A stretch of DNA of 64,000 bases. Origin: Arachis hypogaea (taxonomy: Eukaryota; Streptophyta; Magnoliopsida; Fabales; Fabaceae). The stretch lies in assembly GCF_003086295.3 (NCBI RefSeq), contig NC_092054.1, positions 54,171,353 to 54,235,352 on the forward strand, given 5' to 3'. Made by a program: the position numbers and the translations under genes. Below are positions 4,984-43,810 of this stretch, one piece after another. Under the pieces are notes generated by a model. The model saw only the letters and a program-made list of their open reading frames with translations, made no database searches and had not been told where the DNA came from. Within the stretch, counting starts at the first letter, position 1; each line of letters starts with the position of its first letter.

Positions 4984-5022
4984 ATCTCTCCACACTTAAA
5001 CATTAGCATGTCCTCATGCTAA
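4984..5022 (-). other. Terminal polypurine tract with upstream AGGA-loop hairpin
   Basis: On the minus strand an 8-bp perfect stem (TTAGCATG/CATGCTAA, 5003-5022) with loop AGGA precedes TTTAAGTGTGGAGAGA and then the LTR start. The purine run is the expected plus-strand primer of an LTR element. The hairpin and its spacing match 21091-21127 and 45529-45566. Confidence 0.75.
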
Positions 5023-6440: not shown

Positions 6441-6480
6441 GACCTCCCCACACTTAAAGATTGCACCGTCCTCGGTGCAT
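6441..6480 (-). other. Internal AGGA-loop hairpin plus purine tract
   Basis: On the minus strand a 7-bp perfect stem TGCACCG/CGGTGCA (6462-6479) with loop AGGA is followed by TTTAAGTGTGGGGAGG. It is the counterpart of 19645-19682, at the end of the env-like ORF. It is retained although most of that ORF is gone. Confidence 0.75.
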
Positions 6481-9505: not shown

Positions 9506-9865
9506 ATGGTATGATCGTTCTTTTCTTTATTTTTAGTTTTTCTATTTAATAACTCTTCTCTTTATTAGTACATTTCGTGCATTTGCATTTACATACTTTT
9601 ATTTAAAAAAAAAGGGTTACGCGACGCGACCGCATCATTGATGCATCCGCGTCGCAAGGAGATGGGAGAAAATAAAAACAAACAGAGAGTCACGCAGGAG
9701 CGTGGCTGGAGGCGTGCCAATGGCACAAATTGCCCCACGCGACCGCGTCGCCGACGTGTCTGCGTCACATGGGAACATTGGCCTCCCACGCGACCGTGTG
9801 ACCCACGCGGCCGCATGCCCTAGAATTCGACGTCAAAAGGGTGCACGACCGAAAGTTGTGCTAGA
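9506..9865 (+). repeat. Post-pol spacer with GC dyads, interrupted by the 9871 element
   Basis: Counterpart of 17000-17345. It contains dyads such as ACGCGACCGCGTC and ACGCGGCCGC (about 9620-9820). It is cut at 9865-9870 by the insertion of the element at 9871-22626 and resumes at 22632. Confidence 0.8.
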
Positions 9866-9870
9866 GTGGT

Positions 9871-11317
9871 TGATAAACCACTATTTTATGGTTTATATTG
9901 TGTTTAATTGTGTGATTTTATCATGATATTTACCCACTTATTCATATGATTAGCATGCATTTATATTTCTTTCCTAAATTTATTACATGATTGAAAACTT
10001 GCTTCCTAGAGACTTTTAATTATGTATTTTAATTCTCCTTTATTCCATGCGATGCCGTGATCTGTGTGTTAAGTGTTTCAGGCTTTATAGGGCACGAATG
10101 AGTTAGAGATTAGAAAGGAAGCTTGCAAAAATGGAAGGAACACAAGAAATTAAGGAGATGACCAGCGAGAAGTGACGCGGCCACATGGCTCACGCGACCG
10201 CGCGGATTGGAATAGCATAAGTGACGCAAAGGCGTGGACGACGTGTCCGCGTGGAGAAGCAAAATGCCGAATGACGCGTCCGCATGAGTGACGCGATCGC
10301 ATAATGTGCGCGATCTGCATAATCTGCAGAATCGCTGGGGGCGATTTCGGGCCCTATTTTGACCCAGTTTTTGGCCCAGAAAAGCAGACTAGAGCCAGGG
10401 AACATGCAGAAACCAAGAACAACATTCATTCCGCATAGTTTTAGTTTTTAGATCTAGTTTTCCTCTCCTCTAGGTTTTTTTTCTCTCTACACATTCATAG
10501 TTTTTAGGATTCTTATTTTCTATTGCTTTTTGCATTGGAATTTTGAGAAGAGTTATTACCTCATCAAGACTTCGTCATTCTAGTTCGTTTTCTTTACTTG
10601 GCTTTACTCTTCCGTGTCCTTTAATTTACTTAATTCTACTATTGGATTATTTTAGAATTTATTAATACAAGAGTTATTTTTATTTTTAATTGATTCTTTT
10701 GAGTTTTATTTATCATGTCTTTCTTTAATTCCCTTTCCTATGTTATGAGTTACACATTCACAATGAGTGAGTAGTTCCCTAACTTGATGGGGAGTTGATT
10801 GAAAGGAACCCTTGAGTTGGAATGCTCAAAGGAGAAATTATAATTGGGTTTATTATTGGATTGCCCTCTAATCACTAACGCCAGTCCTTCCAAGTAAGCG
10901 GACTGGGACTTTTGAATAGAAACAGCATTTCAACTTGTTTGACTTTCCCTTACCTAGTAAGGGATAACTAAACAGAACAACCCCCAATTATCAATTAATC
11001 TTGAGAGTAATGCAATAAGAATAGGGCTTCCAACTAATCTACTCCCAGTCAAGGCTTTTATTTAAATCACATTAATTCTCTGATTTAATTTCCTGTCATT
11101 CAACTCAAATCTTTTTGAAAACCATCCGATTAATAAAATAGCACACTTTCCTACAACTCGTTGGGAGAGGACCTGAGATTCATACTCCCAGTATTTTAAT
11201 TTTAATTTTTGTGACACCCTTTTTTAAATTGATAAGCGGATTTCTAGTTGGTTGAGAACTATACTCGCAACGCATATCTTATAACAATTCTTAACTCGCC
11301 AATTTCCGCCCACATCA
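9871..11317 (+). mobile_element. 5' LTR
   Basis: 1447 bp, from TGATAAACCACTA to CGCCCACATCA. A GC-dyad array lies at about 10175-10320. The sequence CAGACTAGAGCCAGGG near 10388 occupies the place of the TATA box in the LTR at 45567 (AATATAAGCC), so the promoter may be degenerate. It is about 52 bp shorter than the 3' LTR because one dyad-bearing unit is missing. Confidence 0.92.
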
Positions 11318-11322
11318 ATTTT

Positions 11323-11340
11323 TGGCGCCGTTGCCGGGGA
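11323..11340 (+). other. Primer binding site complementary to tRNA-Asp
   Basis: TGGCGCCGTTGCCGGGGA, 18 nt, 5 nt inside the LTR. It is a perfect complement to the 3' end of plant tRNA-Asp(GTC) as I recall it (TCCCCGGCAACGGCGCCA). A tRNA-Asp primer is usual for Athila-type elements. Confidence 0.92.
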
Positions 11341-11432
11341 GTTGCAATAGAGTGCTAAAGTTGTTGATTGGATTTTATTTATTTGCATTTTATTTTATTT
11401 TACTACTATGAGCTGCTTGTTTCTTTCGTTGG

Positions 11433-13268
11433 ATGACGCGTTCGCTTCCTGACCCAAGCTTGCTAGTATTCGATCCTGAGATTGAAAGAATTATTTCACG
11501 AATAAGGCAAGCTCGGCGTCAGTTAGTCCTCTCTGAGGGCGGATCTAAAACGTCACTTGAAAAAGAAACCAGCCCCCGTTCTACTGATTTGGTTGTTTTA
11601 CGTGCAGGTAACATGGCAGCAGCTAGGAGAGTTACTATCCAGGAGGCTGGAGCCCCTGATTTTACAATGCAACCATTTCAAGCGCATCACCCAGCGGTGG
11701 CTACAGACTTTGAAATAAAGACCGCACTGCTCAATTTGATGCCCAAGTTTCATGGCTTGCCTACTCAAGAGCCTATCAAGCACCTGAGAGATTTTCAAGC
11801 AGCCTGTTCTACTGTCAGGCGTGATGGTGCAGATGAAACTTCAATTTTGTTGAAAACTTTCCTGTTTTCTCTTGAGGGGAAGACAAGAGAGTGGTACTAC
11901 ACTCAACCAGCAGCAATTGTATCCAACTGGGATACACTGAGAAGAGAATTCTTGGAAAAGTTCTTTCCAGCTGAAGTTATTAATAAACTGAGGAAAGATA
12001 TTTCCATGATTGTTCAGGAAGATTCTGAAACTCTCTATGAGTACTGGGAGCGCTTCAATAATCTTCTGGAGGCTTGCCCCCACCATATGATTGACAAGAT
12101 AGTGTTACTCGGTTACGTCACACAAGGCATGAGGCCCCAAGACAATACCACATTGGAAAGTGCTAGCAATGGGTCTATGAAAAAGTACAAGACCACCGAT
12201 GAGGCATGGCAATTGATCAACGACTTAGCTGAATCTACTAGGAATCACAGGCAGAAACAAGGCCGTGCAAAAGCTATTGCAGAAGTATCCTCTAGCAGAG
12301 AGACTACTGCTTTAATTCAGAGTATATGTGAAATGACCAACTTGCTGAAGCAGATGCAATTGAATCAACAACAAGTTCAGCAAGCTCAACCTTCTCCACC
12401 ACAGCAAAACCAACAGTTAGTCCCACAGAGAGTTTGTGGAGTCTGTGCTGATTATAGCCATTATACTGATGAATGTCCGCAGCTCCAGCAGGAAGACAAC
12501 ACCGTGGCAGCCATTTATAACTTCTATGACTGCCCCAACCAAGGGTACAATCAAAGTGGCAATTACAACCATGGATGGCAGGACAATTCTAACCAGAATT
12601 GGAGGGAGAACAACAACAACAGAGGAGGCAGAGATAATCAGGGGAATCAGAGGTGGAATAACAACAACAACAGGCAGCAGAACCGGTACCAGCCTTACAG
12701 AGCACCTCACCTGAGGCAATCCCAAGGACCACAGAATACCCAACAGCAGACCTCTCAAATTACCTATCCTTCTTCTTCTGCTAATGATGACTTACTACAA
12801 TCAATTGATCGGAGACAGCAGACCATAGAAAATAACATTAATGCCACTCTGAATGATCTGAACGCTACTTTGCAAGCTCTTGTCTCACAGATTGGTTCAA
12901 TGAATAACTCCAATAATCAACCTTTGAGCTCCATTGGAATTCCCTCTCAACCATTACCCAATCCCAAGGGTGGTATTAATGCCATCACCCTAAGGTCCGG
13001 AACCACACTGCAGGAGAGGAACCAGGAGGAGCCAAGCTCACCAGAACACGCCTCAGCTGAAGAGGTAGTGGAAATAGAAGATGTTGAAGAGGAAGAAGAC
13101 ATACAGGACATAGCTGAAAAAGAAGAAGCTCAACCACAGGAGGAAGCATCAAAAGGCGCAGACATTGTAGAAGACACCACTCCTATTCCATTTCCACAAC
13201 TTGCGAGGAAGCCCAGGAAGCAGCTGGAACCTGATCCAAAAATGGTAGAGATATTCAAAAAAGGTTGA
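11433..13268 (+). CDS. gag: Gag polyprotein, Athila-type
   Basis: 611 codons; makes the capsid and nucleocapsid of virus-like particles. The start at 11433 follows the PBS by about 90 nt and matches the start in the minus-strand copy at 2598. The capsid (retrotransposon gag) domain is at roughly residues 100-270, with FHGLP, WYYTQP and LRREFLEKFFPAEV. A canonical CCHC zinc knuckle, C-X2-C-X4-H-X4-C, is at residues 335-348 (CGVCADYSHYTDEC). An Asn/Gly/Gln-rich region and an acidic segment (about 540-575) follow. The frame closes just after FKKG because a run of A has one more base than in the copy at 1-2598, disconnecting gag from the protease frame. Athila elements normally make one Gag-Pol reading frame, so this is an inactivating frameshift. 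Confidence 0.9.
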   Translation: MTRSLPDPSLLVFDPEIERIISRIRQARRQLVLSEGGSKTSLEKETSPRSTDLVVLRAGNMAAARRVTIQEAGAPDFTMQPFQAHHPAVATDFEIKTALLNLMPKFHGLPTQEPIKHLRDFQAACSTVRRDGADETSILLKTFLFSLEGKTREWYYTQPAAIVSNWDTLRREFLEKFFPAEVINKLRKDISMIVQEDSETLYEYWERFNNLLEACPHHMIDKIVLLGYVTQGMRPQDNTTLESASNGSMKKYKTTDEAWQLINDLAESTRNHRQKQGRAKAIAEVSSSRETTALIQSICEMTNLLKQMQLNQQQVQQAQPSPPQQNQQLVPQRVCGVCADYSHYTDECPQLQQEDNTVAAIYNFYDCPNQGYNQSGNYNHGWQDNSNQNWRENNNNRGGRDNQGNQRWNNNNNRQQNRYQPYRAPHLRQSQGPQNTQQQTSQITYPSSSANDDLLQSIDRRQQTIENNINATLNDLNATLQALVSQIGSMNNSNNQPLSSIGIPSQPLPNPKGGINAITLRSGTTLQERNQEEPSSPEHASAEEVVEIEDVEEEEDIQDIAEKEEAQPQEEASKGADIVEDTTPIPFPQLARKPRKQLEPDPKMVEIFKKG

Positions 13269-16200
13269 GGTAACTGTTCCTCTATTTGATGTTATTCAAC
13301 AGGTACCTAAGTATGCAAAGTTTCTAAAAGATTTATGTATACATAAAGACAAAATTAATGAATTAGAAACTATTCCTTTAGGTAGTTCCATATCTGCTTT
13401 AATGGAAGGTTTACTTGAAAAGTGTAGTGACCCAGGTCCTTGTATAGTTAATTGTACTATTGGTGGTGTGATAATTTCTGACTGCATGTGTGATTTAGGA
13501 GCATGTGTGAGTATAATACCTTTATCTATATATGATGTTTTGAGGCTCCCTCCCTTAAAAAGGTCGGCAGCTCGTTTTGTGTTAGCAGATAAAAGCATTA
13601 TTACAGTGGTTGGAGTTGCTGAAGATGTTTTAGTGGGCATTAAGGGACTCACGTTCCCCACTGATTTTTATATCCCGGAAATGCCCCAAAATGATTCAGA
13701 CAAGCCATCATCAATCCTACTCGGAAGGCCATTCTTGAAGACCTCAAAGTTTAAATTAGATGTTTTTTCAAGAACATACTCTTTTGAAATAGATGGCCGA
13801 ATAGTGATCTTCAACCTGAATGGAGTTATGACGCATCCTCCAGAGGATCACTCTATCCTCAAGAGTGACATTATAGATGAAACCGTGGCTGAAGTCCATC
13901 AGGAGGAACTTGAAGAGAAGCACACAGGACAAGGTCCAAGTGTGGGGACATTCTCAGAGGACAATGACAGTGCTTTGCCATTATTACCAGCTCCAGACAA
14001 CCCAGAGCCTGACCATGATCAGAAGTTAGAGCTAAAACCCCTTCCTCCACACCTCAAATATGCTTACCTTGAAGACAAGCAGAAGTTTCCAGTTATCATT
14101 GCAAGGGAGCTCACTTCTCAACAAGAAGAGTAATTACTTGGTGTGCTGAGGAGACACAAAAAGGTAATTGGTTGGAGTTTGGCAGACATAGTAGGTATCA
14201 ACCCTCAAGTCTGTGAGCATAGAATATTTTTAGAAGAGGGAGCAAGACTTGTCTGTCAACCATTGAGAAGACTGAACCCCACTATCCTCGAGGTTGTCAA
14301 AAAGGAAGTGACCAGACTACTGGAGGCAGACATCATCTACCCCATCTTAGACAGTGAATGGGTGAGCCCGGTACAAGTAGTGCCAAAGAAGTCTAGAGTT
14401 ACTACAGTGAAGAATTAGCATGGAGAGCTCATAGCAACCAGAATTCAGAACGCCTGGAGGGTCTGCATTGACTATAGATGCCTCAACCAAGCCACCCGTA
14501 AGGATCACTATCCTCTTCCATTCATTGATCAAATGCTGGATCGCCTGTCAGGTAAATCACATTATTGTTTTTTAGATGGTTACACAGGTTATTTCCAGAT
14601 TCATATAGCTCCTGAGGATCAGGAAAAGACCACTTTTACATGTCCTTTTGGGACTTATGCTTACAAGAGAATGCCCTTTGGCTTGTGCAATGCACCAGCT
14701 ACTTTTCAGTGGTGCATGATAAGTCTTTTCTCTGATCTTATTGAGGACTGCATGGAAGTTTTTATGGATGATTTTAGTGTTTATGGTGATTCCTTTAGCC
14801 TTTGCTTAGATGGATTATCTAGAGTATTAGATAGATGTGTCAGTACAAATCTTGTATTAAATTTTGAAAAATGTCACTTTGTGGTTAAACAAGGGATTGT
14901 ACTAGGACATGTTATGTCTAATACTGGTATTTCTGTAGATCCAGCAAAGGTGGATGTTATTTCTAGTTTACCTTACCCCTCTTCTATGAGGGAAGTCCGT
15001 TCGTTCCTTGGCCATGCAGGTTTTTACAGGAGATTCATTAAGGACTTCAGTAAGGTAGCACTTCCCTTATCCAAGCTACTGCAGAAAGATATTGAGTTCG
15101 AGTTCAGTAAAAATTGCAAACAAGCGTTTGATAAGTTGAAAACCGTCCTGACTCAAGCTCCAATTGTGAGAGGGCCAGACTGGAGCCAACCATTTGAAAT
15201 AATGTGTGATGCTTCCAACCATGCCGTAGGAGCAGCACTGGCTCAGCATGAAGGTAATGATCCTTTTGTTGTTGCTCACGCGTCTAAAACTTTAGATGCC
15301 GCTCAGTCGAATTACACTACTACTGAGAAAGAGCTTCTTGCTATTGTTTTTGCTCTGGATAAATTCCGAGCCTATTTACTTGGTACTAAAGTAGTAGTGT
15401 ATTCAGACCACACAGCTCTAAAGTATTTATTAGCTAAAAAGGAGTCCAAACCAAGGCTTATACGTTGGATACTGCTATTACAAGAATTTGATTTGAAAAT
15501 TAAGGACAGGAGTGGTAACCAGAATTTAGTGGCAGACTACTTGAGTCACCTTGAACATATTACAGATGACTCCACTCCTATAGCTGATAATTTCCCATTT
15601 GATAACCTGCAAGCAGTATCTTAGATAGCCCCTTGGTATGCACCTGTAGCTAATTATCTAGTTAGCCGCACCTTCCCTCCGAACTTTTCTAAGTATCAAA
15701 GAGACAAGCTGAAAAGTGAGTCTAAATATTATATATGGGATGACCCATATTTATGGAGATGTGGTGCTGACCAGGTAATTAGACGGTGTGTTCTTCAATC
15801 AGAATTCCAGTCCATCTTAGAGGCCTGTCACTCATCTGAGAGTGGAGGACATTTTGGCCCTCAAAGGACTGCTAGAAAAATCTTAGACTATGGATTCTGG
15901 TGGCCTATTCTTTTTAGAGACGCTGCTGAATTTTGTAGATCTTGTTTTCCCTGCCAAAAATTTGGTAATATATCCAGGAAGGATGAGATGCCTCAATAAA
16001 TTATGCTTTTCTGTGATATTTTTTATGTTTGGGGCATTGACTTCATGGGTCCATTTTCAAATTCTAATGGTTATTTATATATATTGTTAGCTGTAGATTA
16101 CGTTTCCAAATGGGTGGAAGCAATTCCTACCCGCACTGATGATGCTAACACTATTGTTTCCTTTGTGAGAAACCATATTGTTTGTCACTTTGGATCACCA

Positions 16201-16937
16201 CGAGCAATCATTAGCGATCAAGGCACCCATTTTTATAACAGGAGACTAACCGGATTAATGAAGAAGCATGGGATAATTCATAAGGTTGCAACAGCATGCC
16301 ACCCTCAGACTAATGGGCAAGCCGAGGTGTCAAACAGAGAAATAAAGCGTATCTTGCAGAAGATAGTCAAACCTCATAGAAGAGACTGGAGCACCAGGCT
16401 ACAAGATGCACTTTGGGTGTACAGAACCGCATACAAAACACCCATTGGGATGAGTCCTTTCCGCTTAGTTTATGGAAAAGCTTGTCATCTCCCTGTTGAA
16501 GTAGAGCACAAAGCCTTCTGGGCAGTAAAGGAGTGCAACATGGGAATTGAAAAAGCCGGAGCTGAAGGAGATTACAACTGTAAGAATTGGAAAGCCTTCG
16601 CCTGGAAGCTTATGAGAACTCAAGACTATACAAGGAGAAGATGAAGGCTGTACATGATTAGCACATCAGGAGGAAAGAGTTCCAACTGGAGGATTTAGTC
16701 CTCCTTTACAAATCTCGACTGAGGCTCATGCCAGGCAAGTTAAGATCAAGATGGGAAGGTCCATACAGAGTAGAGAAGGCCGAACCGTACGGAGTTTATC
16801 ACCTATGCCATCCTTCAAGCTCTGAACTTATCAAAGTTAATGGACATCGTTTAAAGCTATACCATGGCGAGCAGCTGAAGAAAAACAAGGAGCTCGAGAT
16901 CATCCTCTTGGAAGATCCCCACATAGCCGAAGACTGA
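13265..16937 (+). pseudogene. pol: Pol: protease, reverse transcriptase, RNase H, integrase (broken)
   Basis: Domains in order: retropepsin (CDLGACVSIIP, about 13490); RT, including [11 protein letters not shown] and the catalytic FMDDF (about 14690-14775); RNase H with [28 protein letters not shown] and VADYLSHL (about 15205-15550); integrase with an HHCC finger (CHSSESGGHFG to CRSCFPCQK, about 15828-15960), first Asp near [10 protein letters not shown], second in ISDQGTHF and the Glu in [11 protein letters not shown]; then a C-terminal tail ending at 16937. One frame carries most of it, interrupted by stops at 14131-14133, 14416-14418, 15622-15624 and 15997-15999. A frameshift near 16570-16600 moves the tail to another frame. 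All catalytic residues I checked are present, so decay is by stops and indels, not loss of motifs. Confidence 0.92.
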
Positions 16938-16945
16938 GCTAGTGG

Positions 16946-16998
16946 AGCGTCCAACTTACGGACGTTAAAGCAAAGTGCAAGGTGGGAGACAACTCACC
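16946..16998 (+). other. Post-pol double hairpin
   Basis: Stem 1 AGCGTCC/GGACGTT (16946-16966) has loop AACTTAC. Stem 2 GGTGGG/CTCACC (16981-16998) has loop AGACAA; one C-to-T change turns a G-C pair into G-U without breaking the stem. It lies 9 nt after the pol stop. Confidence 0.72.
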
Positions 16999-16999
16999 A

Positions 17000-18390
17000 T
17001 GGTATGATCGTTCTTTTCCTTATTTTTTATTTTCTTATTCAATAACTCTTCTCTTTATTAGTACATTTCGTGCATCTGTATCTGCATATTTTTATTTAAA
17101 AAAAAAAACGTTACGCGACGCGACCGCATCATTGACGCGTCCGCGTCGCAAGGAGATGGGAGAAAATAATAAACAAACAGAGAGTCACGCAGGAGCGTGG
17201 CTGGAGGTGTGCCCGTGGCACAAATCGCCCCACGTGACCGCATGCCCCATGCGACCGCGTGCCCCACGCGGCCGCGTGCCCCACGCGGCCGCGTGACCTG
17301 GATTTCGACGTAACAAGAGTGCACGACCGAAAGTTGTGCTAGAGTAGTGCTGGATTGGTACTGAGCGCATAATCCTTTCCACGCGGCCGCGTGAGCGACA
17401 CGACCACGTCATATCCCTCTACCAGCCCACTCACGCGATCGCATGCCCCATGCGATCGCGTCACCCAAAATTTGGCACGAATATGATTTTGAATAGAGAG
17501 TTGTGCGAGTGCGAGGCTACCCTCGCGCCATTAGCCTTAAACGGGCCACGCGACCGCGTTAATTAGTTTCAACGCAAGTCGCGCGACCGCGTGCCTCACG
17601 CGACCGCGTCGCTTGCGCCGCACAGTTTTCCTGATTTGCCAATTATCTTATCTTTTTCTCCCCAAATCCTATTTTGTCTTTTCCCTCCTTATTTCTTCTC
17701 CCTCCCTTCCTTCCTTCTTCCTTCTTTCTCACTTTTTTTTACACTTTCTCTCTCTCACCCCCCATTAACAAGGTTTTTCTTGTTCTCCTTCCCTCCTTAC
17801 TTTTCTATTATTCTTCTTATTTTTATATGTGATCTTCTTTTCTCTTCGTTTTACCTTCATTATTCATATTGTCTTTTTCTTCCTTTTTCCTTTTTATTTG
17901 GTGTTATAAATTTATGTGAGTCATTAATTCTCATTCTATGCTTGTGGATTGTTATAAATTTGTTTGACAATTATATATATTACTTTTTCAAGGGATGCTT
18001 GCATGTTCACTTTCATACTTTCCATAACTTAATTATCGTGCATGCTATGTGTTTGTAGAAAGGCCCATATGGCATTATGCATTTTTCTACATTATCCTAC
18101 GATTCAATGCTTGATTTTCACAAATTCCCTTTACTATTGTATTAATTGGAAATTAATTGTCAATACAAACGTGATGGTTTGTTACGAGTAATGCTTGATC
18201 TATGCTACTCATGCCTTTGCCAGCATGCCAATAAACGCCTTGCATTTACTTGTCATCATATGCCCTAGCTATCTTCCATTAATGACTTTTCACATGTAGT
18301 CATGACCATGTGTTAACATCATTTACCTTTAAATGTGCATTCATAACCATCCTTTTCCGTTCTCTTCCTTGCTCTATCTCTTTGAATTTA
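17000..18390 (+). repeat. Spacer with GC-dyad array and pyrimidine-rich leader
   Basis: 17113-17620 holds many dyads (ACGCGACCGCGT, ACGCGGCCGCGTG, ACGCGATCGCAT), the same motif class as in the LTR at 10175-10320. 17640-17900 is a C/T-rich tract (plus strand). No convincing ORF; the 155-codon frame at 17591-18058 is the translation of this tract. In Athila elements this region separates pol from the env-like ORF. Confidence 0.75.
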
Positions 18391-18416
18391 ATTTTCTTTC
18401 TCTTCCCTTTTTCAGG
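18391..18416 (+). promoter_or_regulatory. Candidate 3' splice site directly before env-like ORF
   Basis: A pyrimidine tract ends in CAG|G one base before the ATG at 18417. The same layout (pyrimidines, CAG, G, ATG) precedes the env-like ORF at 32831 and the remnant starting at 6597. This suggests the ORF is expressed from a spliced subgenomic RNA. The donor is not identified. Confidence 0.5.
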
Positions 18417-19670
18417 ATGCCCACCAAGAAAGGAAAGGAGAAAGCCACACCCAAACAACCAGCAAGAAGAGGAACGAAAATAGCATTAGTGGCAGAACCT
18501 TCTTCAACTGCAGTTAAGCCCTCAACAAAGAAAATTAAGAGGATTATAAAAGTTGATGATAAAGAAAGACCCTTCTCAGCAAAGGACACTGCGCGATTCC
18601 CCAATCGCTACTGTGAGCAGATGTTCCCCATCCTGGCAGAAAGGAGTTACAACAATGAATACCTTCTTCTCCTCCCAAACCATATTGCTACATTTGTTGA
18701 GCCGCAGATTACACGAAGACAATGGGATTTCCTACAGAGACAGCCAAGGCAGTTCAATCTTTCTTGGGTAGTCGAGTTTTACTCCAACTTCCACCTACCA
18801 ACCCTGCAATCTGTCTACGTCCGTCAGAAGCAAGTCCCCATTACAGAAGAGGCCATTCAACAAGCTCTAGGTCTTCCCCCCGTTCCAGAAGGATTGGATG
18901 CCTTTCAAGAAGCCGCACTCAAGCGCCAGCTGTACCAATTCGACTGGGACGCCGTTCTCAGAGTCATCGCACTACCTGGCAGCCGATGGATCTACGGATA
19001 CCATCGTACCCGCCCTAAGGGAATTTCGGCTTCAGCACTTACCTTGGAGGCTCGCGTATGGGCACAGATCATGTCCCATTACGTCTTTCCGAGCACTCAC
19101 GAATCCTCCTTCACTGCGGACATGGCCGTTCTACTATGATGCATCCTTACAGACCAACCTTTGAATCTACCAAGACATATCTGGAATGCCATGGGACACG
19201 TATAAATTGCGGGCAACTCACCTTTCCCCGCCCTGGTCTCAGATCTTGTCTCAGCCGCCGGAGTCTCCTACAGAGCTGAGGACACCAAAGCCATGCTTCT
19301 CCGGGATGATCAGTATGTCCCTAACGGGAAGTACCTTAGACTTCCAGCAGCCACTATCAGCCAGCCTACTGAACCAGTTGAAGATATTCCTTCTTCAACA
19401 CCACAAGCATCCACTACTGACCAACTGCTCCAGCAGATACTTGCAAGGTTGGATTGGCAGGAACAGAAAGCTAAGATGAGAGAGCACCGTAACAAGCGCC
19501 GATTCACATACCTCAAGGAGCTGATTATGGGAAAATTCAAGGACTCAGACACCCCCGACTCCACTTCCTTTACCAGTACAGGGAGCCACGATGGCCCCGA
19601 CGATGGAGATACTGCTACCAACCCACCTTTGTTCCTGACAGATGGCACCGAGGACGGTGCAAAGCCTTAA
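18417..19670 (+). pseudogene. Env-like / putative plant transposon protein ORF, two stops
   Basis: 418 codons in one frame from MPTKKGKEK to the stop fused to the downstream hairpin module. The basic, Lys/Pro-rich N-terminus is followed by a globular region with NRYCEQMFPIL, WVVEFYSNFHLP, TEEAIQQALGLP, FDWDAVLR and IMSHYVFPSTHES, shared with 32831-33360/42857-43767. I associate this block with the Pfam family named putative plant transposon protein (PF20167, from memory). The C-terminus is Ser/Thr/Asp-rich. No signal peptide or clear membrane segment is visible, so a true envelope role is doubtful. Stops at 19137-19139 (TGA) and 19203-19205 (TAA) break it. Confidence 0.8.
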
Positions 19671-19682
19671 GTGTGGGGAGGT
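19645..19682 (+). other. Internal AGGA-loop hairpin plus purine tract
   Basis: Perfect stem GCACCG/CGGTGC (19645-19660) with loop AGGA, 6 nt, then TTAAGTGTGGGGAGG. It overlaps the last codons and stop of the env-like ORF. It is nearly the same module as the true PPT at 21091-21127, placed 1.45 kb upstream, so it could act as a second plus-strand priming site or an RNA processing signal. Confidence 0.7.
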
Positions 19683-21090
19683 CGGTCAGCACCTGACTTC
19701 CGGAGGTAATTTCTCTTTCCTAAACACCAATAAATGAGGATATTTAGTTAGATTTTTCTTTTGTAGAATAGGATAAATTGCATAGTAATAGGTTATTTGC
19801 ATGCATGTTCTGTTTGATTGAAAAGACAATAGGTTTCTTCGAAGACCCTATCTTTGGAACAAAATTTCACTAATTTTAATCAAAATTTTTATGTTAAATT
19901 TGCTTGAAGTTGTATTTGGATCATAATTTTTGAGCTAAAGAAAACACAACCTGTGAGATTTGAGCCTTTATGAATGGTTACATTATTTAACCATAACTAT
20001 TTTATTCTTGTGTGTTTACTTCTCTATAATTGTAATCTATATTTTGTTTCATCCTATATGTCCAATGTTTATTATATTTATATGTTTGCATATGATTGAG
20101 GCCATTATTTGTTTAGCCCACTTATCCAAATTAAGCCTGCCCCTTTCAATTATCTTTGTTAGCCACTTTGAGCCTTTAAATCCTATTTGTTCTATATTTT
20201 ACCACATTACTAGCCTTAAGCAGAAAAATAATTATATATCCCAAATTGAATATTTGGTTAGCTTAAGATAGAATTGTGTGAGTCAATCAAGTATGGGAAA
20301 TTGTGGGAACAAAAGATAATAAGGGAATGTGTTATGATAATGTAATGAGAATTTGGATATCTACTCATGTGGAACTATAAGAATTAAAAATCTATGTGCA
20401 TTGATAAGCTATGTTTATTTTTATGTTAATTAAAAAAAATTTCAATAAATAAATAAGAGGACAAAATTACCCCAATGTTAAGTTAAGAATTCAAAGGTCA
20501 ATGCATGTATGATAAAATTAAAATAAAAGGTTGAAACATGAGTATGGAATGTGAAAGGAATTTCTGGGTAGCTAGGTATGCATTCTAAAGTTATATAGAA
20601 TATACATAGAGGTTAGGCGAAAGCTTGGGTTAATTAAAGATTCAATTTATGAGCTTACTTAGCCATATATATATCCTTACCCTTACCTTGGCCCCATTAC
20701 AACCTTGAAAAGACCTCATGATGTTTGCATTGGTATATTAAATATTGTTGATTGGTTAGGAGAAGAACAAAAATTTAGAAAGCATGATTAGAGAAGGATA
20801 GAGTAATTACCCTATACACTAGAGAGACTAGAGTGTACATATATCTTCAGTGAGGGTTCAATGCTTGAAATTTTATGTTCCCTACTTTCATGAGTTGTCT
20901 TCTTGCATTTTTAGCTGTTCTTGCTGTATAAGAATTGAATTAGTGGAATTTAATTTGTAATTGTTTTGAAGAGCTTATTTACTTTTGATCAAGTGGACAA
21001 GAATCATATAGTTGCATTTACATATATAGGTTGCATTGCATTGCATGAGTTTCACATGTTCCTGCTCATTTATTTTATCTCCTTCAACTA
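19683..21090 (+). other. Non-coding 3' spacer
   Basis: AT-rich, 1.4 kb, no supported ORF. Counterparts are at 5023-6440 and 43811-45528, sharing ACACAACCTGTGAG and GAGGCCATTATTT-type segments. Confidence 0.7.
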
Positions 21091-21127
21091 AGCATGAGGA
21101 CATGCTAATGTTTAAGTGTGGGGAGGT
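21091..21127 (+). other. Polypurine tract with AGGA-loop hairpin
   Basis: Stem AGCATG/CATGCT (21091-21106) with loop AGGA, 4 nt spacer, then TTTAAGTGTGGGGAGGT ending at the 3' LTR boundary. The purine tract is the plus-strand primer of the element. Confidence 0.85.
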
Positions 21128-22626
21128 TGATAAACCACTATTTTATGGTTTATATTGTGTTTAATTGTGTGGTTTTACCATGATCTTTACCCACTTATTC
21201 ATATGATTAGCATGCATTTATATTTCCTTCCTAAATTTATTACATGATTGAAAACTTGCTTCCTAGAGACTTTTAATTATGTATTTTAATTCTCCTTTAT
21301 TCCATGCGATGCCGTGATCTGTGTGTTAAGTGTTTCAGGCTTTATAGGGCACGAATGAATTGGAGATTGGAAAGGAAGCTTGCAAAAATGGAAGGAACAC
21401 AAGAAATTAAGGAGATGACCAGTGAGAAGTGACGCGGCCGCATGACTCACGCGACCGTGCGAAAGAGAGGAAATCGCAGTGACGCGGCCGCATGGCTCAC
21501 GCGATCACGCAGATTGGAATAGCATAAGTGACGCGGAGGCGTGGACGATGCATCCGCGTGGAGAAGCAAAATGCCGAATGACGCGTCCGCATGAATGACG
21601 CGATCACATGACGTGCGCGATCTGCATAATCTGCAAAATCGCTGGGGGCGATTTTGGGCCCTATTTTGATCCAGTTTTCGGCCCAGAAAAGCAGACTAGA
21701 GCCAGGTAACATGCAGAAACCAAGAACAACATTCATTCCGCATAGTTTTAGTTTTTAGATCTAGTTTTCCTCTCCTCTAGGTTTTTTTTCTCTCTACACA
21801 TTCATAGTTTTTAGGATTCTTATTTTCTATTGCTTTTTGCATTGGGATTTTGAGAAGAGTTATTACCTCATCAAGACTTCGTCATTCTAGTTCGTTTATT
21901 TACTTGGCTTTACTCTTCTATGTCCTTTAATTTACTTAATTCTACTATTGGATTATTTTAGAATTTATTAATACAAGAGTTTTTATTTTTATTTTTAATT
22001 GATTCTTTTGAGTTTTATTTATCATGTCTTTCTTTAATTCCCTTTCCTATGTTATGAGTTACACATTCACAATGAGTGAGTAGTTCCCTAACTTGATGGG
22101 GAGTTGATTGAAAGGAACCCTTGAGTTGGAATGCTCAAAGGAGAAATTATAATTGGGTTTATTATTGGATTGCCCTCTAATCACTAATGCCAGTCCTTCC
22201 AAGTAAGCGGATTGGGACTTGTGAATAGAAACAACATTTCAACTTGTTTGACTTTCCCTTACCTAGTAAGGGATAACTAAACAGAACAACCCCCAATTAT
22301 CAATTAATCTTGAGAGTACTGCAACAAGAATAGGGCTTCCAACTAATCTACTCCCAGTCAAGGCTTTTATTTAAATCACATTAATTCTCTGATTTAATTT
22401 CCTGTCATTCAAATTAATTTTTTTTGAAAACCATCCGATTAATAAAATAGCACACTTTCCTGCAACTCGTTGAGAGACGACCTGGGATTCATACTCCCAG
22501 TATTTTAATTTTAATTTCTGTGACACCCTTTTTTAAATTGATAAGCGGATTTCTGGTTGGTTGAGGACTATACTCGCAACGCATATCTTATAACAATTCT
22601 TAACTCGCCAATTTTCGCCCACATCA
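21128..22626 (+). mobile_element. 3' LTR
   Basis: 1499 bp, TGATAAACCACTA to CGCCCACATCA. It has two copies of a 52-bp dyad-bearing unit (about 21425-21530), where the 5' LTR has one. The relative at 2714-3493 also has two, so two is ancestral here. Confidence 0.92.
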
Positions 22627-22631
22627 GCGGT

Positions 22632-23392
22632 GCTGGATTGGTGCTGAAAGCACAATCCATCCCACGCGGCCGCGTGACCGACGCGACCGCGTCATATCCT
22701 TCTAATGGCCACTCACGCGATCGCATGCCCCACGCGATCGCGTCACCCAATATTTGGCAATTAATGATTTTGAATAGAGAGTTGTGCGAGTGCAAGGCTG
22801 CCCTCCGCCAGTGGCATAAAACAGGTCACGCGACCGCGTGACCGACGCGACCGCGTGACCGACGCGACCGCGTGACCGACGCGACCGCGTCAATCAGTAT
22901 CAGCGCAAGTCGCACGACCGCGTGTTCCACGCGACTGCGTCGATTGCGCCACACAGCTTCCCTGATTTGGCACTTATCTTATCTTTTTCTCCTCAAATCC
23001 TATTTTCTCTTTTCCCTCCTTATTTCTTCTCCCTCCCTTCTTCCTTCTTCCTTCCTTCTCACTTTTTACACCCTCACTCTCTCCTTCTCTCCCTCATTAA
23101 CAAGGTTTTCTTTTTTTTCTTCACTCCTTAATTTTCTATTTTTCTTCATATTTTTCTATGTTATCTTCTTTTCTTTTCTTTTTACTTTCATTATTCATAC
23201 TTTCTTCCTTTTTACTTGGTGTTAGATATTTATTTGAGTCATTATTTCTCACTATATGCTTGTGGATTGTTCTAAATTTGTTTGGCAATTATATATTACT
23301 TTTTAAAGGGTTGCTTGCATGTTCAATTTAATACTTTTCATACATTATTTCACCATGCATTCTATGTGTTTGTGAAAAAGCTCATATGGCAT
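22632..23392 (+). mobile_element. Right-hand continuation of the element split by the 9871 insertion
   Basis: Resumes exactly where 9865 stops and is colinear with 17346-18070: dyad array (22660-22940), then C/T-rich tract and leader. It includes a 17-bp unit repeated perfectly three times (22840-22890) that the 17550 region lacks. It ends at 23392, where an LTR-like block begins; the env-like ORF that should follow is absent. Confidence 0.82.
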
Positions 23393-33360: not shown

Positions 33361-35005
33361 TGGTGGACGAAATTGTGATCACATTAATGTAGTACTCTTT
33401 GTTATTGTATGGAATCATTATTATGGCTCTTTACTATGTGTGGACACAACTCCGTTCAACTAACCAGCAAGTGTACTGGGTCGTCCAAGTAATAAACCTT
33501 ACGCGAGTAAGGGTCGATCCCACAGAGATTGTTGGCTTGAAGCAAGCTATGGTCACCTTGTAAATCTCAGTCAGGCGGATTTAAACATGATACTTTATTA
33601 GATTAAAATAAACAATAAAAGGGATAGAGATACTTATGTAGATTCATTGGCAGGGATTTCAGATAAGCGAATGAAGATGCTTTTCGTTCCTCTGAACCTC
33701 TGCTTTCCTGCTATCTTCATCCAATCAGTCTCACTCCTTTCCATGGCTGGCTGTATGCAAGGGCATCACCGTTGTCAGTGGCTACATCCCCTCCTCTCAG
33801 TGAATCATATGCTCACGCACCCTGTCACGGCACGGCTATTCATCTGTCGGTTCTCGATCATGCTGGAATAGGATTCACCCTCCTTTTGCGTCTGTCACTA
33901 ACGCCCAACACACGCGAGTTTGAAGCTCGTCACAGTCATTCAATCATTGAATCCTACACAGAATACCACAGACAAGGTTTAGACCTTCCGGATTCTCTTG
34001 AATGTCGCCATCATTCTAGCTTACGCCACGAAGATTCTGGTTAGGAGATCTAAGAGATACTCATTCTAGCTTAATTCATGTAGAACGGAAGTGTTTGTCA
34101 GGCACGCGTTCGTAAGGGAGAAGGATGATGAGCGTCACACATAATCATCACCTTCATCACGTTCTTGGGTGCGAATGGATATCTTAGAAGCGAAATAAGA
34201 AGAATTGAATAGAAAACAGTAGTACTTTGCATTAATCTTTGAGGAACAGCAGAGCTCCACACCTTAATCTATGGAGTGTAGAAACTCTACCGTTTGAAAA
34301 TACATAAGTGAAGGTCCAGGCATGGCCGAGATGGCCAGCCCCTCTGATCTAAGAACCAGGCGTCCAAAGATGTCAAATACAATAGTAAGAGGTCCTATTT
34401 ATAATAAACTAGCTACTAGGGTTTACATGAGTAAGTAATTGATGTACAAATCCACTTCCGGGGCCCACTTGGTGCGTGCTTGGGCTTGGGCTTGAGTGTT
34501 ACACGTGCAGAGGCCATTTGTGGAGTTGAACGCCAGTTTCTGTGCCAGTTTGGGCGTTCAACTCTGGTTTTGGATCCTTTTCTGGCGCTGGACGCTAGAT
34601 TTGGGCAGAAGGCTGGCGTTGAACGCCATTTTACGTCGTCAATTCTTGGCCAAAGTATGGACTATTATATATTGCTGGAAAGCCCTGGATGTCTACTTTC
34701 CAACGCAATTGGAAGCGCGCCATTTCAAGTTCTGTAGCTCCAGAAAATCCTCTTTGAGTGCAGGGAGGTCAGAATCCAACAGCATCAGCAGTCCTTTTTC
34801 AACCTCTGAATCTGATTTCTGCTCAAGTCCCTCAATTTCAGCCAGAAAATACCTGAAATCACAGAAAAACACACAAACTCATAGTAAAGTCCAGAAATGT
34901 GAATTTAACACAAAATCTCTTTAAAATCATCCCTAAAAGTAACTAGATCCTACTAAAAACATACTAAAAACAATGTCAAAAAGCGTATAAATTATCCGCT
35001 CATCA
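33361..35005 (-). mobile_element. 3' LTR of the non-autonomous element
   Basis: TGGTGGACGAAATT to CCGCTCATCA. Minus-strand TATA box TATAAATAGG at 34403-34394. About 120-240 bp upstream of it are GAGTTGAACGCC/GGCGTTCAACTC arms (34523-34534 and 34553-34564) and further GGCGTTGAACGCC dyads. A U5 hairpin CCTTAC/GTAAGG is at 33497-33512. Confidence 0.92.
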
Positions 35006-35042
35006 CAACGCCAAACTTAAATTGTTGCTTGTCCCCAAGCAG
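35006..35042 (-). other. Terminal plus-strand primer region with GGGA-loop hairpin
   Basis: Minus strand: stem TGCTTG/CAAGCA (35026-35041) with loop GGGA, then TTTAAGTTTGGCGTTG and the LTR start. Same architecture as 21091-21127 with a different stem sequence. Confidence 0.72.
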
Positions 35043-36053
35043 CTGAAAATCAAAATAGGATAAAAAGAATAGAATATACTATAAATTCCAAACTATCAAT
35101 GAAACAGAGCTTCAATCATATGAGCGGGACTTATAGCTTTTTGCCTCTTGAATAGTTTTGGCATCTCACTTTATCCATTGAGGTTCAGAATGATTGGCAT
35201 CTATAGGAACTTCAGATTTCGAATAGTGTTATTGACTCTCTTAGTTCAGTATGATGATTCTTGAACACAGCTTCTTTATGAGTCTTGGCCGTGGCCCTAA
35301 GCACTTTGTTTTCCAGTATTACCACCGGATACATAAATGCCACAGACACATAATTGGGTGAACCTTTTCAGATTGTGACTCAGCTTTGCTAAAGTCCCCA
35401 ATTAGAGGTGTCCAGGGTTCTTAAGCACACTCTTTTTTTGCTTTGGACCTTGACTTTAACCGCTCAGTCTCAAGTTTTCACTTGACACCTACACGCCACA
35501 AGCACATGGTTAGGGACAGCTTGGTTTAGCCGCTTAGACCAGGATTTTATTCCTTTAGGCCCTCCTATCCACTGATGCTCAAAGCCTTGGGATCCTTTTT
35601 ATTTGCCCTTGCCTTTTGGTTTTAAGGGTTATTGGCTTTTTCTGCTTGCTTTTTCTTTTTCTTTCTATTTTTTTTCTAATTTTTTTTTCGCCTATTTTTT
35701 TCTTCTTTTTTTTTCTGCAAGCTTTGTTCTTTGCTGCTTTTTCTTGCTTCAAGAATCATTTTTATGATTTTTCAGATTATCAAATAACATGTCTCCTAGT
35801 CATCATTCTTTTAAGAGCTAATATATTTAACATTCTTAAACAACAACTTCAAAAGACATATGCACTGTTCAAGCATTCATTCAGAAAACAAGAAGCATTG
35901 TCACCACATCAATATAATTAAACTAAGTTCAAGGATAAATTCAAAACTCATGTACTTCTTGTTCTTTTGAATTAAAACAGTTTTTATTTTAAGAGAGGTG
36001 ATGGATTCATAGGACATTCATAACTTTAAGACAGAGTTACTAACTACTAATGA
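35043..36053. other. Non-coding 3' spacer
   Basis: Counterpart of 59202-60333. A T-rich, C-interspersed tract lies at 35630-35730. No ORF is supported; the frames at 35616-35921 translate the T tract. Confidence 0.7.
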
Positions 36054-36312
36054 TCATGTAATGAAGACACAAACATAGATAAGCACATAACATAGAAAAT
36101 GAAAAACAGAGAAAGTAAGAACAAGGAATGAGTCCACCTTAGTGATGTCCTTGAGCTCTTCTATGTCTCTTCCTTGCCTTGGCTGCTCCTCCTTCATTGC
36201 TTTTAGATCTTCTCTGATTTCATGAAGGATGATGGAGTGCTCTTGATGTTCCACCCTTAGTTGCTTCTAATAATTGTGTGGAAGAAAATGTATCCCCTGA
36301 GGTATCTCAGGG
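36054..36312 (-). pseudogene. Env-like ORF, C-terminal remnant
   Basis: Minus-strand frame with HQEHSIILHEIRED and RQGRDIEELK, matching the C-terminal end of the intact ORF at 60334-61485. About 930 bp of upstream coding sequence (equivalent to 60586-61515) and a further stretch of about 45 bp are missing. The remnant abuts a tRNA-derived sequence at 36313. Confidence 0.8.
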
Positions 36313-36358
36313 ATCTCTTGATTTGCAGTCAAATGTTCTACCACTGAGCTATAGATCC
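36313..36358 (-). pseudogene. tRNA-Cys(GCA) 5' half embedded in retroelement
   Basis: Minus strand: starts GGATCTATAGCTCAGTGG, continues TAGAACATTTGACTGCAAAT and ends near the variable loop (AAGAGATC). It holds the acceptor 5' strand, D arm and anticodon arm with anticodon GCA of plant nuclear tRNA-Cys, with about six transitions against the sequence I recall. The T arm and 3' acceptor are absent, so it is not a gene. Flanking element sequence overlaps it by GGGAT. Best explained as filler from template switching onto tRNA-Cys or a tRNA half. Confidence 0.78.
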
Positions 36359-36374
36359 TTTACATAATTGTTTT

Positions 36375-36412
36375 ACCACACCAAACTTAGAATGTTGCTC
36401 GTCCTCGAGCAA
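36375..36412 (-). other. Internal AGGA-loop hairpin plus TAAGTTTGGTGTG
   Basis: Minus strand: perfect 7-bp stem TTGCTCG/CGAGCAA (36395-36412) with loop AGGA, 4 nt, then CTAAGTTTGGTGTGG. It duplicates the terminal module at 35006-35042, which has a different but also paired stem. In this family it lies upstream of the env-like ORF, not after it. Confidence 0.7.
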
Positions 36413-36589
36413 AAGAAGAGGGAATAGATCAAGAAGAAGATGTGGAAATAAAAACTAGGATTATGAGGAGGTAAGGTGGGGATCCTGTGGGGTTCACAGA
36501 TCCTGAGATGATCCTGTGGTGTCCACAGATCCTGAGGTGTCAAGGATTTACATCCCTGCACCCATTAGGCATGTAAAATGCCCTTGCAC

Positions 36590-36775
36590 TCAACTCTGGG
36601 CGTTCAGCGCCAGGTTGGTGCCCATTTTGGGCGTTCAACGCCCCTTTGCTGCCATTTCTGGCGTTGAACGTCAGAACCATGCTTGTTCTGGGCGTTCAGC
36701 GCCAGGATGCTCCCATTCTGGGCGTTCAGCACCAGAACTATGCTCTGTTCTGGCGTTTGAACGCCAGACAGATGC
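36590..36775. repeat. Array of GGCGTTNNNCGCC dyads
   Basis: About six dyads (GGCGTTCAGCGCC, GGCGTTCAACGCC, GGCGTTGAACGTC, GCGTTTGAACGC) at a period of roughly 33-38 bp, with ATGCTCC/TGCTTG linkers. Counterpart at 61965-62150; the same dyad type occurs in the element's LTRs. Confidence 0.75.
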
Positions 36776-36907
36776 TCCTCCAGGGTGTGATTTTTCTTCT
36801 GCTGTTTTTGATTCCGTTTTCAATTTTTATATTTATTTTGTGACTTCTCATGATCATGAACCTATAAAGACACATAACTAAGAAAAATATAGTTAGATAA
36901 ATAAACA

Positions 36908-36954
36908 TTGGGTTGCCTCCCAACAAGCGCTTCTTTAATGTCAATAGCTTGACA
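36908..36954 (-). other. Double hairpin after gag-pro
   Basis: Minus strand: TGTCAA/TTGACA (36939-36954, loop GCTA), then TTAAAGAAGCGCTTG, then TTGGG/CCCAA (36908-36923, loop AGGCAA). It is laid out like the post-pol block at 16946-16998 with different stem sequences and a shared linker TTAAAG. Confidence 0.72.
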
Positions 36955-36972
36955 GTGGGCTCTCATGGAGCC

Positions 36973-39300: not shown

Positions 39301-41177
39301 ACAAGGAAGAATGGACAGAAAAATAATAATAATAATAATAGAGATCCTTTATACCACAGTATAGGGATCCCTTTGTGAGTGGAAGAAAAGAGGGGGAGAT
39401 AAAGAATGTGATGTAAAGGAAGAAACACAACTGTGAGAATGGAAGAGATGTGAGATGAGATGTTAGGATATGAATGAATAAATAGAATAGGATGCGGGAG
39501 GTATAATTTTCGAAAATTATTTTGAAAAAGGGTTAGTGATTTTTGAAAATTGGTTTTTGAAAATTGTTAGTATTATTTTTCAAAAATTTTTTTTTTGAAA
39601 TAAAAAAAAAATAAAAAAATAAAAAATAAAAATAATTAGTTAATTAAAAAGAAATTTTTGAAAAAGAGGGAGATATTTTCGAAAATTAGAGAGAGAGAGT
39701 TAGTTAGGTAGTTTTGAAAAAGTTAAGAAACAAACAAAAAGTTAGTTAGTTAGTTGAAACAAATTTTGAAAAGATAGGAAGTTAGGAAGTTAGAAAAGAT
39801 ATTTTGAAAAGATATTTTTGAAAAAGATAAGATAAGAAGATATTTTTGAAAAGATATGATAGGAATTAGTTTTTGAAAAAGATTTGATTTTTAAAATCAC
39901 AATTAATGACTTGATTCATAAGAAATCACAAGGTATGATTCTAGAACTTAAAGTTTGAATCTTTCTTAACAAGCAAGTAACAAACTTCAAATTTTTGAAT
40001 CAAAACATTAGTTATTTATGTTATTTTCGAAAATTATGATATAAGATAGGAAAAAGATTTTTGAAAAATATTTTTGGAATTTTCGAAAATAACTAAGAAT
40101 TTTGAAAAAGATTTGATTTTTGAAAAAGATTTTGAAAAAGATAAGATTTTCAAATTGAAAATTTGATTTGACTCATTGGTAACAACTTGATTTTTAAAAA
40201 TTTTTGAAAAATTCAATCCAAATTTTCGAATTTGATGAGAGAAAAAGGGAAAGATATTTTTTTGATTTTTGAAATTTTTATGAAAAACATGAAAAATATG
40301 CAATGCATGAAATTTTTAGATCAAAACAATGAATGCATGCAAGAGTGCTATGAATGTCAAGATGAACACCAAGAACACTATGAAGATCATGATGAACATC
40401 AAGAACATATTTTTGAAAAATTTTTAATGCAAAGAAAACATGCAAGACACCAAACTTAGAATTCTTTAATGCTTACGCACTAAGAATTCAAGAATGCATA
40501 TGATAAACATGAAAAGACACAAAACAAAAAAATCATCAAGATCAAACAAGAAGACTTACCAAGAACAACTTGAAGATCATGAAGAACACTATGAATGCAT
40601 GATATTTTCGAAAAAATGCAATATGCATATGCAAGTGACACCAAACTTATAACATGACTCAAGACTCAAACAAGAAACATGAAATATTTTTTATTTTTAT
40701 GATTTTCCAATTTTTTTGGATTTTTATTTTATATTTTTCGAAAATTATTGTGAAAATAAAAAAATAAGGATTCCAAAATTTTTAATATGAATTCCAGGAA
40801 TCTTGCCATGTTAGTCTTAAAGCTCCAATCAAAGGGTCAAGCATGGCTTAATAGCCAGCCAAGCTTCAACATATAATTACATGGGCTGGAGTGATTAGTT
40901 GAATACCAATCCCAAAGTAGTTTGGGTATGGCTTTACAGCCAGATATGATTCAACATATTTCATGAAACACTAGAATTCATTCTTAAAAATTTTGAAGCC
41001 ATAGAATAATTTATTTTTGAAAACATTTTTTTTTTCGAAAATTTATTTGAAGAAAAACGAAAACAAAGAAAAATTTTTTTTGAAAAAGTTTTTGAAAAAA
41101 TTTTTGAAAATAAAATAAAGAGAAAATTACCTAATCTGAGCAACAAGATGAACCGTCAGTTGTCCAAACTCGAACAA
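39301..41177 (-). other. Long 5' leader, TTTTGAAAA-rich
   Basis: 1.9 kb between PBS and gag with no supported gene. It has an (AAT)n run at 39321-39342 just before the gag start, dense TTTTGAAAA and TTTTCGAAAA dyads across 39500-41110, and an imperfect duplication around 40830-40965 (GGCTTAATAGCCAG and GGCTTTACAGCCAG followed by TTCAACAT). CACCAAACTTA, the motif of the hairpin modules, recurs at 40449 and 40640. Confidence 0.7.
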
Positions 41178-41195
41178 TCCCCGGCATCGGCGCCA
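41178..41195 (-). other. Primer binding site, tRNA-Asp type
   Basis: Minus strand TGGCGCCGATGCCGGGGA, one mismatch to the site at 11323-11340. It lies 6 nt from the LTR edge at 41202. Confidence 0.88.
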
Positions 41196-41201
41196 AAAAC
41201 T

Positions 41202-43771: not shown

Positions 43772-43810
43772 AGCATCGAGGACGATGCTATTATTTAAGT
43801 GTAGGGAAGT
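43772..43810 (+). other. Internal AGGA-loop hairpin plus purine tract
   Basis: Perfect 7-bp stem AGCATCG/CGATGCT (43772-43789) with loop AGGA, 4 nt, then TTTAAGTGTAGGGAAGT. It starts 5 nt after the stop of the env-like ORF. Confidence 0.75.

Follow-up and report, generated by a model that had tools for sequence, protein, structure and literature searches.

In several families of long terminal repeat (LTR) retrotransposons of peanut (Arachis hypogaea), a small hairpin stands a fixed distance before the polypurine tract (PPT) that primes plus-strand DNA. Its arms covary from one family to another and it recurs where the tract is duplicated, so that it is probably a working part of element copying. 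Here, we describe this hairpin in a window of 64,000 nucleotides (nt) of contig NC_092054.1, which is the whole stretch analysed and to whose positions the coordinates refer, and in wider samples of the genome; the DNA-level evidence is from peanut, and plants beyond it were reached through proteins. Hairpin, spacer and PPT make up a module of ~39 nt, with a pyrimidine-rich stretch in front. Athila-like elements have the module at their internal tract and again at the LTR-proximal one; in chromovirus-type elements it stands before the LTR-like end. The hairpin persists both where the sequence is non-coding and where it is read in different frames. We favor the view, with a probability of roughly 0.6, that pyrimidine stretch, hairpin and PPT form a cis-acting module for plus-strand priming that has been duplicated in Athila-like elements. 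A covarying hairpin linked to the tract offers a testable structural determinant of plus-strand primer choice by plant retrotransposon reverse transcriptases. It also supplies a signature, hairpin plus TAAG plus G-rich tract, by which PPTs and 3′ LTR boundaries can be located in very abundant elements.

When both strands of the window are scanned for a G(RGGA)C loop on a stem of at least five pairs, exactly nine hairpins are found, at the positions given in the original prediction. Their stems of 6–8 pairs are perfect, as had been claimed, all nine being recovered with Watson-Crick pairs only. Each has an AGGA or GGGA loop closed by G-C, and behind each comes a G-rich tract that opens with TTAAGT or CTAAGT (T(A/G)AGT follows in 9/9). 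The window contains 41 G(A/G)GGAC sites on its two strands, nine of them stem-bearing. Among 200 approximately dinucleotide-preserving shuffles of the window, the mean number of hairpins was 0.79 and the maximum 5, and hairpin plus tract never occurred. In 264 kb including the window, GAGGAC with its complement makes up 16 of 97 occurrences of hairpins with stems of at least six Watson-Crick pairs, and is the commonest four-base loop besides AT repeats. On these two grounds, a chance origin is rejected. A decayed tenth copy (61520-61560) had also been proposed, correctly: it retains pairing at 6/9 arm positions and has lost the closing pair. Instead of the four lineages originally suggested, we find two main ones, A and B, with subfamilies. 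The modules (internal/terminal) are at 19645/21091, 43772/45529 and 6441/4984 in lineage A, and at 36375/35006 and 61520/59165 in lineage B. The predicted purine tract follows all nine hairpins, but that of lineage B (AAGTTTGGTGTTG) is not a clean purine run. Likewise, the loop and its G-C closure hold for all nine window copies but are not universal in the genome, where the loop is AGGG at sampled locus L022 and TGGG at L011, and the closure is open at L013 and L023. No Rfam family matches over the module at the gathering threshold, the only matches in the window being two to snoR71 elsewhere, so a known Rfam RNA is rejected. The individual features are as follows.

19645-19660, plus strand: hairpin GCACCG-AGGA-CGGTGC, internal module, lineage A, inside open reading frame (ORF) 19206-19667 (frame ending GTEDGAKP-stop)
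19667-19682, plus strand: internal PPT TTAAGTGTGGGGAGGT, whose TAA terminates the upstream ORF
21091-21106, plus strand: hairpin AGCATG-AGGA-CATGCT, terminal module, lineage A
21112-21127, plus strand: terminal PPT abutting the 3′ LTR, which begins TG at 21128
9871-11317, plus strand: 5′ LTR of the lineage A element; 5 nt beyond it comes a stretch resembling a primer-binding site (PBS), TGGCGCCG...GGGGA
21128-22626, plus strand: 3′ LTR of the lineage A element; apart from one change, its flanks GTGGT/GCGGT look like a 5-bp target-site duplication
43772-43789, plus strand: hairpin AGCATCG-AGGA-CGATGCT, internal module; the frame is not coding here, as it meets an in-frame stop four codons ahead of the E-D codons
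43795-43810, plus strand: internal PPT-like tract
45529-45546, plus strand: hairpin TAGCATG-AGGA-CATGCTA, terminal module
45551-45566, plus strand: terminal PPT
6462-6479, minus strand: hairpin TGCACCG-AGGA-CGGTGCA, internal module
6441-6457, minus strand: internal PPT
5003-5022, minus strand: hairpin TTAGCATG-AGGA-CATGCTAA, terminal module
4984-4999, minus strand: terminal PPT
36395-36412, minus strand: hairpin TTGCTCG-AGGA-CGAGCAA, internal module, lineage B
36375-36390, minus strand: internal PPT-like tract CTAAGTTTGGTGTGG
35026-35041, minus strand: hairpin TGCTTG-GGGA-CAAGCA, terminal module, lineage B
35006-35020, minus strand: terminal PPT-like tract abutting the 3′ LTR (33361-35005)
59183-59202, minus strand: hairpin GTTGCTTG-GGGA-CAAGCAAC, terminal module, second lineage B element
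59165-59179, minus strand: terminal PPT-like tract, second lineage B element
61539-61560, minus strand: decayed internal hairpin, second lineage B element (6/9 positions pair)
61520-61536, minus strand: internal PPT-like tract, second lineage B element, followed by a PF20167 ORF (60337-61485)

The association of hairpin and tract is also seen across the genome. A motif-blind sample of twenty 10-kb stretches (200 kb in total) contains 12 RGGA hairpins, 11 of which precede a PPT-like tract; ten were assigned an A- or B-type tract by script, and L027 has a TTAAGGTGGG tract, recognized by eye. The hairpin with none is at L012, a locus with a Tat-like element in which pol is present and whose 3′ LTR lies beyond the fetched stretch. 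Approached from the other side, 20 loci were selected solely by the exact A-type PPT 17-mer, ignoring the stem. Five perfect inner pairs are present in 17 of them (two with the closing C changed to T), and the other three (L090, L095, L098) are damaged. This 17-mer has 30404 copies in the 2.557-Gb genome, versus 3 for its reversed control. A further set of 35 modules, all distinct, was selected by tract and loop, with no condition on the stem. Here the gap from loop to tract is 9-11 nt in 35/35, where 6-18 nt was allowed. Across the modules as a whole, the conserved loop region is mostly GAGGAC, with the general form GNGGRC. Upstream of the arms, 21 nt are 82% pyrimidine (30 sequences), compared with 50% at random.

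That the stem sequences differ with both arms changed together was part of the original prediction, and the larger sets confirm it. In the 35 modules, perfect runs average 5.89 pairs; exchanging arms at random among the modules lowers this to 1.71 (maximum 3.23). Among 28 distinct hairpins, 91.5% of cells are paired, versus 27-46% when the arms are slid, and the covariation score is 0.749, as opposed to 0.11-0.20 slid and 0.201 shuffled. Three of five covariation measures beat all 500 shuffles, in a control that ignores relatedness, and the slid versions are lower on all five. A set of 52 modules, again chosen without a stem condition and with identical modules counted once (75 reduced to 52), includes 41 with five perfect inner pairs, where 2000 arm shuffles average 7 and never exceed 18. 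Five of the 11 broken rows (L103, L104, L107, L108, L109) had been anchored on the wrong hexamer. On re-inspection, the stem of L104 proved complete, seven arm pairs were intact in L103 and L107-L109 were damaged, making 41/52 a slight underestimate. Seven different inner arm pairs occur in this set, with three Watson-Crick types at each of the five positions, a pattern that in a fixed register no tree can explain with fewer than ten two-sided changes. Two of the four combinations of these arm variants were counted genome-wide: GCACC/GGTGC has 11338 copies and GCATC/GGTGC has 347. A census of 50 modules that required at least 4/6 pairs (2 G-U and 3 A-C of 300) was not used for claims, and MAFFT alignment of the modules introduced gaps within the 3′ arm.

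The same hairpin is present in chromovirus-type elements. At L011, pol is followed by hairpin GAATTTTG-TGGG-CAAAATTC, then by a G-rich tract and a sequence that resembles the start of an LTR, and a chromodomain (PF00385) is found in some of its protein relatives. The reverse transcriptase (RT)-RNase H of lineage A is 41% identical to that of L011, and the module is common to both. No second module was seen at L011 in the 2.3 kb scanned, the hairpin coming directly after pol. The module is duplicated, as predicted, in the window elements, which have internal and terminal copies, but the hairpin is not tied to duplication. For a 186-nt, hairpin-bearing piece of L027, 20 relatives were examined. 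The stem AAATTTTG...CAAAATTT is complete in 15 of them, including two whose loops are AAGG and AAGA; in two more, seven arm pairs remain and the closure is G-T, and three are damaged.

Proteins carry the trail, indirectly, to other plants. A single DNA hairpin, read in three frames, could encode all three of the polyprotein tails NFEDEI, NFRGRK and KFSRTK. With tails of at least eight residues from 122 listed proteins (120 of 7932 scored, plus 2), the hairpin is encodable in 11/26 distinct tails (phases 4/5/2), compared with 5/780 shuffled tails and 2/130 control-loop tests. Three of these 11 tails, of phases 1 and 2, come from Trifolium repens and T. pratense. A further protein search returned three proteins, one of them the query itself. 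Scans of viral contigs found no plant relatives, and a scan of genome contigs gave 9 records, all titled as bacterial metagenome-assembled genomes. As a control for the motif, 52 matches to GAGGAC...GC...TTAAGTTTGG in viral contigs, several near-identical and hence not independent, include one with at least four closing pairs.

Several results weigh against a selected, PPT-linked structure that acts in priming. On the two remaining covariation measures, judged by the same control, which ignores relatedness, the hairpins do no better than shuffles: two-sided change is seen in 7/8 pairs where the shuffle mean is 6.5 (reached in 298/500), and further pair types number 13 against 14.1 (428/500). 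Insertion of whole pairs, with stems of 5 and 6, could explain several two-sided changes at once. The L027 relatives, selected for their similarity, all have a single arm type and therefore attest persistence, not covariation. In single-sequence folding, the ten window modules fold only modestly better than shuffles (z from -0.17 to -3.61), and for two of the ten the predicted minimum is a different fold. Hairpin columns and flanks are similarly conserved in two of four sets (A terminal 0.67/0.65, B internal 0.71/0.72), in a comparison that does not allow for register shifts. PPT-like sites without the loop motif number 41, not de-duplicated, as against the 35 distinct sites with it; many of the former lie in lineage B gag repeats and leaders, some are unrelated look-alikes, and hairpin-less TAAGTTTGGTGT copies occur in lineage B. 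Among the 260 inner-pair cells of the 52 modules, G-U is no better tolerated than A-C (4 versus 2). An RNA hairpin should, moreover, be melted while the RNA is hybridized to minus-strand DNA. Finally, Ty3 primes from a PPT, and no such hairpin is mentioned in the available portion of PMC5371799.

The original prediction held that a structured RNA signal is coupled to the PPT. The coupling is well supported, by covariation, by 17/20 PPT-chosen loci and by the fixed spacing. Neither result named beforehand as refuting the prediction (no covariation above phylogenetic expectation, or stems unpaired in most other family members) was observed, with controls that ignore relatedness and with plants beyond peanut reached through proteins. 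Action as RNA fares less well: since G-U is as rare as A-C, an RNA-only role is not favored, and the rarity is a clue to pairing on both strands, though not proof of it.

How else might such a hairpin be maintained? Covariation is silent on what a structure does, and the hairpin could be a signal for some other step (Gag recognition or packaging, RNA stability, 3′ end formation) that merely sits next to the PPT and was duplicated along with it. The loop is more conserved than the arms, as in protein-binding hairpins, and the internal module is close to ORF ends. We nonetheless regard this as unlikely, because the loop stands a constant 9-11 nt from the PPT and the module accompanies internal and terminal tracts alike although the sequence after the tract differs; nor was any other stretch seen in common between the two copies on informal comparison. 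A more doubtful account still is mutational upkeep, in which one arm is copied from the other during reverse transcription, by fold-back or template switching, with no selection on pairing. Templated correction would give what is seen in the stems, namely pairs that are nearly all Watson-Crick, with G-U as rare as A-C. In addition, the sixth pair of related A-type stems is either A-T or T-A, and in L007 this position is T-T. Mutational upkeep leaves unexplained the conserved loop, the fixed spacing and the presence of the hairpin at loci chosen by their PPT, and the other hairpins of at least seven pairs listed for the two elements have no common loop.

Two further explanations seem very improbable. 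Under a protein-coding constraint, the hairpin would encode a conserved C-terminus, with E-D between fixed residues. The hairpin at 19645 does coincide with the last codons of its ORF, and of 17 related proteins listed (36 found), 14 reach the end, five with GTEDGAKP and nine with one or two residue changes; NFEDEI occurs in some chromovirus-type tails. However, the LTR-proximal copies are downstream of the last ORF found, the stem at 43772 is intact despite the preceding in-frame stop, lineage B shows no one open frame across the stem, and in the tails (11/26 listed) the same nucleotides are read in three frames. In view of these non-coding and frame-shifted copies, coding constraint is rejected as the sole cause. 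Simple common ancestry, with young duplicates that have had too little time to diverge, is equally hard to credit. All window copies do come from one broad superfamily, and the exact PPT 17-mer has its 30404 genomic copies, but the arms differ between families and stay complementary. These two-sided changes lead us to reject recent duplication as the explanation.

If the module acts in plus-strand priming, hairpin and PPT would cooperate, the hairpin most likely setting the 5′ boundary of the primer. An RNA hairpin might shape RNase H cutting. Alternatively, once upstream RNA is removed, a hairpin in the minus-strand DNA could stack beside the RNA:DNA duplex of the PPT and shield it. Duplication of the module in Athila-like elements would then provide a possible second, internal plus-strand start. 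A role as an integrase site would not explain the internal copies, which have no LTR junction. We also considered loop-loop pairing with the leader and rejected it: there is no common complement, the A element having three occurrences of GTCCTC/GTCCCC and the B element none. More tentatively, the GNGGRC-loop hairpin 9-11 nt before the primer may be an ancestral cis-element of plant Ty3/gypsy elements, chromoviruses and Athila-like elements included. It would pair on both strands, including single-stranded minus DNA, fix the 5′ edge of the primer and protect the downstream PPT from displacement by strands begun at the internal PPT.

The extra PPT is already known, and the hairpin beside it was not found in print among open-licence papers. 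In Athila4/Calypso an extra PPT lies in the linker (Wright and Voytas 2002, as cited in PMC2829016), and PPTa of the sugar-beet chromovirus Bongo3 overlaps a TAA stop (PMC3605345). Both thus resemble the peanut elements in having a second PPT at or after the coding end, Bongo3 with the same stop overlap as at 19667, and the available text of these accounts mentions no hairpin, conserved loop or covariation (PMC2829016, PMC3605345). Sireviruses (Ty1/copia) likewise have multiple PPTs and an inverted repeat placed precisely at the PPT. One arm of that repeat is upstream of the PPT and the other within the LTR, the loop containing the PPT; the upstream PPTs lack the repeat (PMC2829016). In the peanut hairpin, by contrast, both arms are upstream, the PPT is outside and internal PPTs are included. 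A repeat of the Sirevirus type, with an arm in the 3′ LTR, was not encountered, both arms being upstream in the nine intact copies; an additional repeat with an LTR arm was not sought. Retroviruses, Ty1 and fission-yeast Tf elements share a conserved pyrimidine-rich sequence upstream of the PPT (U-box/T-box, TCTT), and such boxes have been proposed to help define the plus-strand primer (PMC10085805). The peanut modules differ in having a covarying hairpin between pyrimidine stretch and PPT. HIV-1 and Ty1 have a second, internal PPT and an internal plus-strand start, with no such hairpin described in the available portions of these sources (PMC2829016, PMC5371799). Extra PPTs have been discussed as giving a second plus-strand start, and in the same partially available source their role is called unclear (PMC2829016). 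A search for PPT-associated hairpins has been explicitly called for (PMC3601003). We did not find the hairpin described in the open-licence literature, including the accessible parts of PMC11963269, PMC11381356, PMC5371799, PMC3350952, PMC2864245 and PMC6911290; the founding Athila/Calypso paper, outside that coverage, could describe it.

The hosts in the window are LTR retrotransposons of the Ty3/gypsy type, as seen from self-comparison, LTR ends and Pfam. The lineage A element at 9871-22626 has gag, RT-RNase H and integrase in Ty3/gypsy order (PF03732, PF00078, PF17917, PF00665), with a PF20167 ORF downstream of pol that may correspond to the env-like gene of Athila. Its internal module lies at the stop codon of ORF 19206-19667; then come ~1.4 kb without ORFs of at least 150 aa, the terminal module and the 3′ LTR. 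One LTR-bounded element therefore contains a second PPT of the terminal type, the tracts at 19667 and 21112 sharing TTAAGTGTGGGGAGGT. The PBS-like stretch 5 nt past the A-type LTR, TGGCGCCG...GGGGA, may be of the tRNA-Asp type. In Calypso and Diaspora, a PBS for tRNA-Asp follows the LTR after 5 bp, the same spacing (PMC1142308). A third TAAGTGTGGGA site, without a hairpin, is present in the linker between lineage A modules at 5853 (minus strand) and 44683 (plus strand). GC-rich 17-nt palindromic repeats of the CACGCGGCCGCGTG type lie between integrase and the PF20167 ORF (17227-17295, 17433-17461), and also in the LTR (10272-10327) and beyond the element (22828-22890).

The lineage B element at 33361-42856, on the minus strand, has a GCGTC flank on each side and LTRs that are 99% identical. 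It contains one internal ORF of at least 150 aa, with gag and, below the Pfam cut-off, a weak match to protease, and keeps both modules. No pol ORF of at least 150 aa is listed for it, and no dedicated search for a broken pol was made; the lack of a pol ORF alongside both modules is as expected of a non-autonomous element. The second lineage B element has its internal module ahead of the PF20167 ORF. A hairpin-less tract motif, CTAAGTTTGGTGT, recurs in lineage B within 33-nt tandem repeats at the end of gag (37003-37098 and 62381-62443, minus strand), which read SKFGV and contain the palindrome ACCAAACTCTAAGTTTGGT. Single hairpin-less copies of CTAAGTTTGGTGT are present in the lineage B leader at 40459 and 40650.

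The gag proteins of lineages A and B are 26% identical, yet both lineages have the module. A search of the window and 14/20 random loci gave five Rfam matches to snoR71 (RF00097), at 11985-12092 (minus) and 38659-38766 (plus) in the window, 9524-9631 (plus) in L022, 6122-6229 (minus) in L023 and 862-969 (minus) in L012. All five are antisense within gag or gag-like ORFs, and the two window matches fall at about the same place in the gag domain despite the divergence of these lineages. The Rfam family snoR71 may describe gag instead of a small nucleolar RNA.

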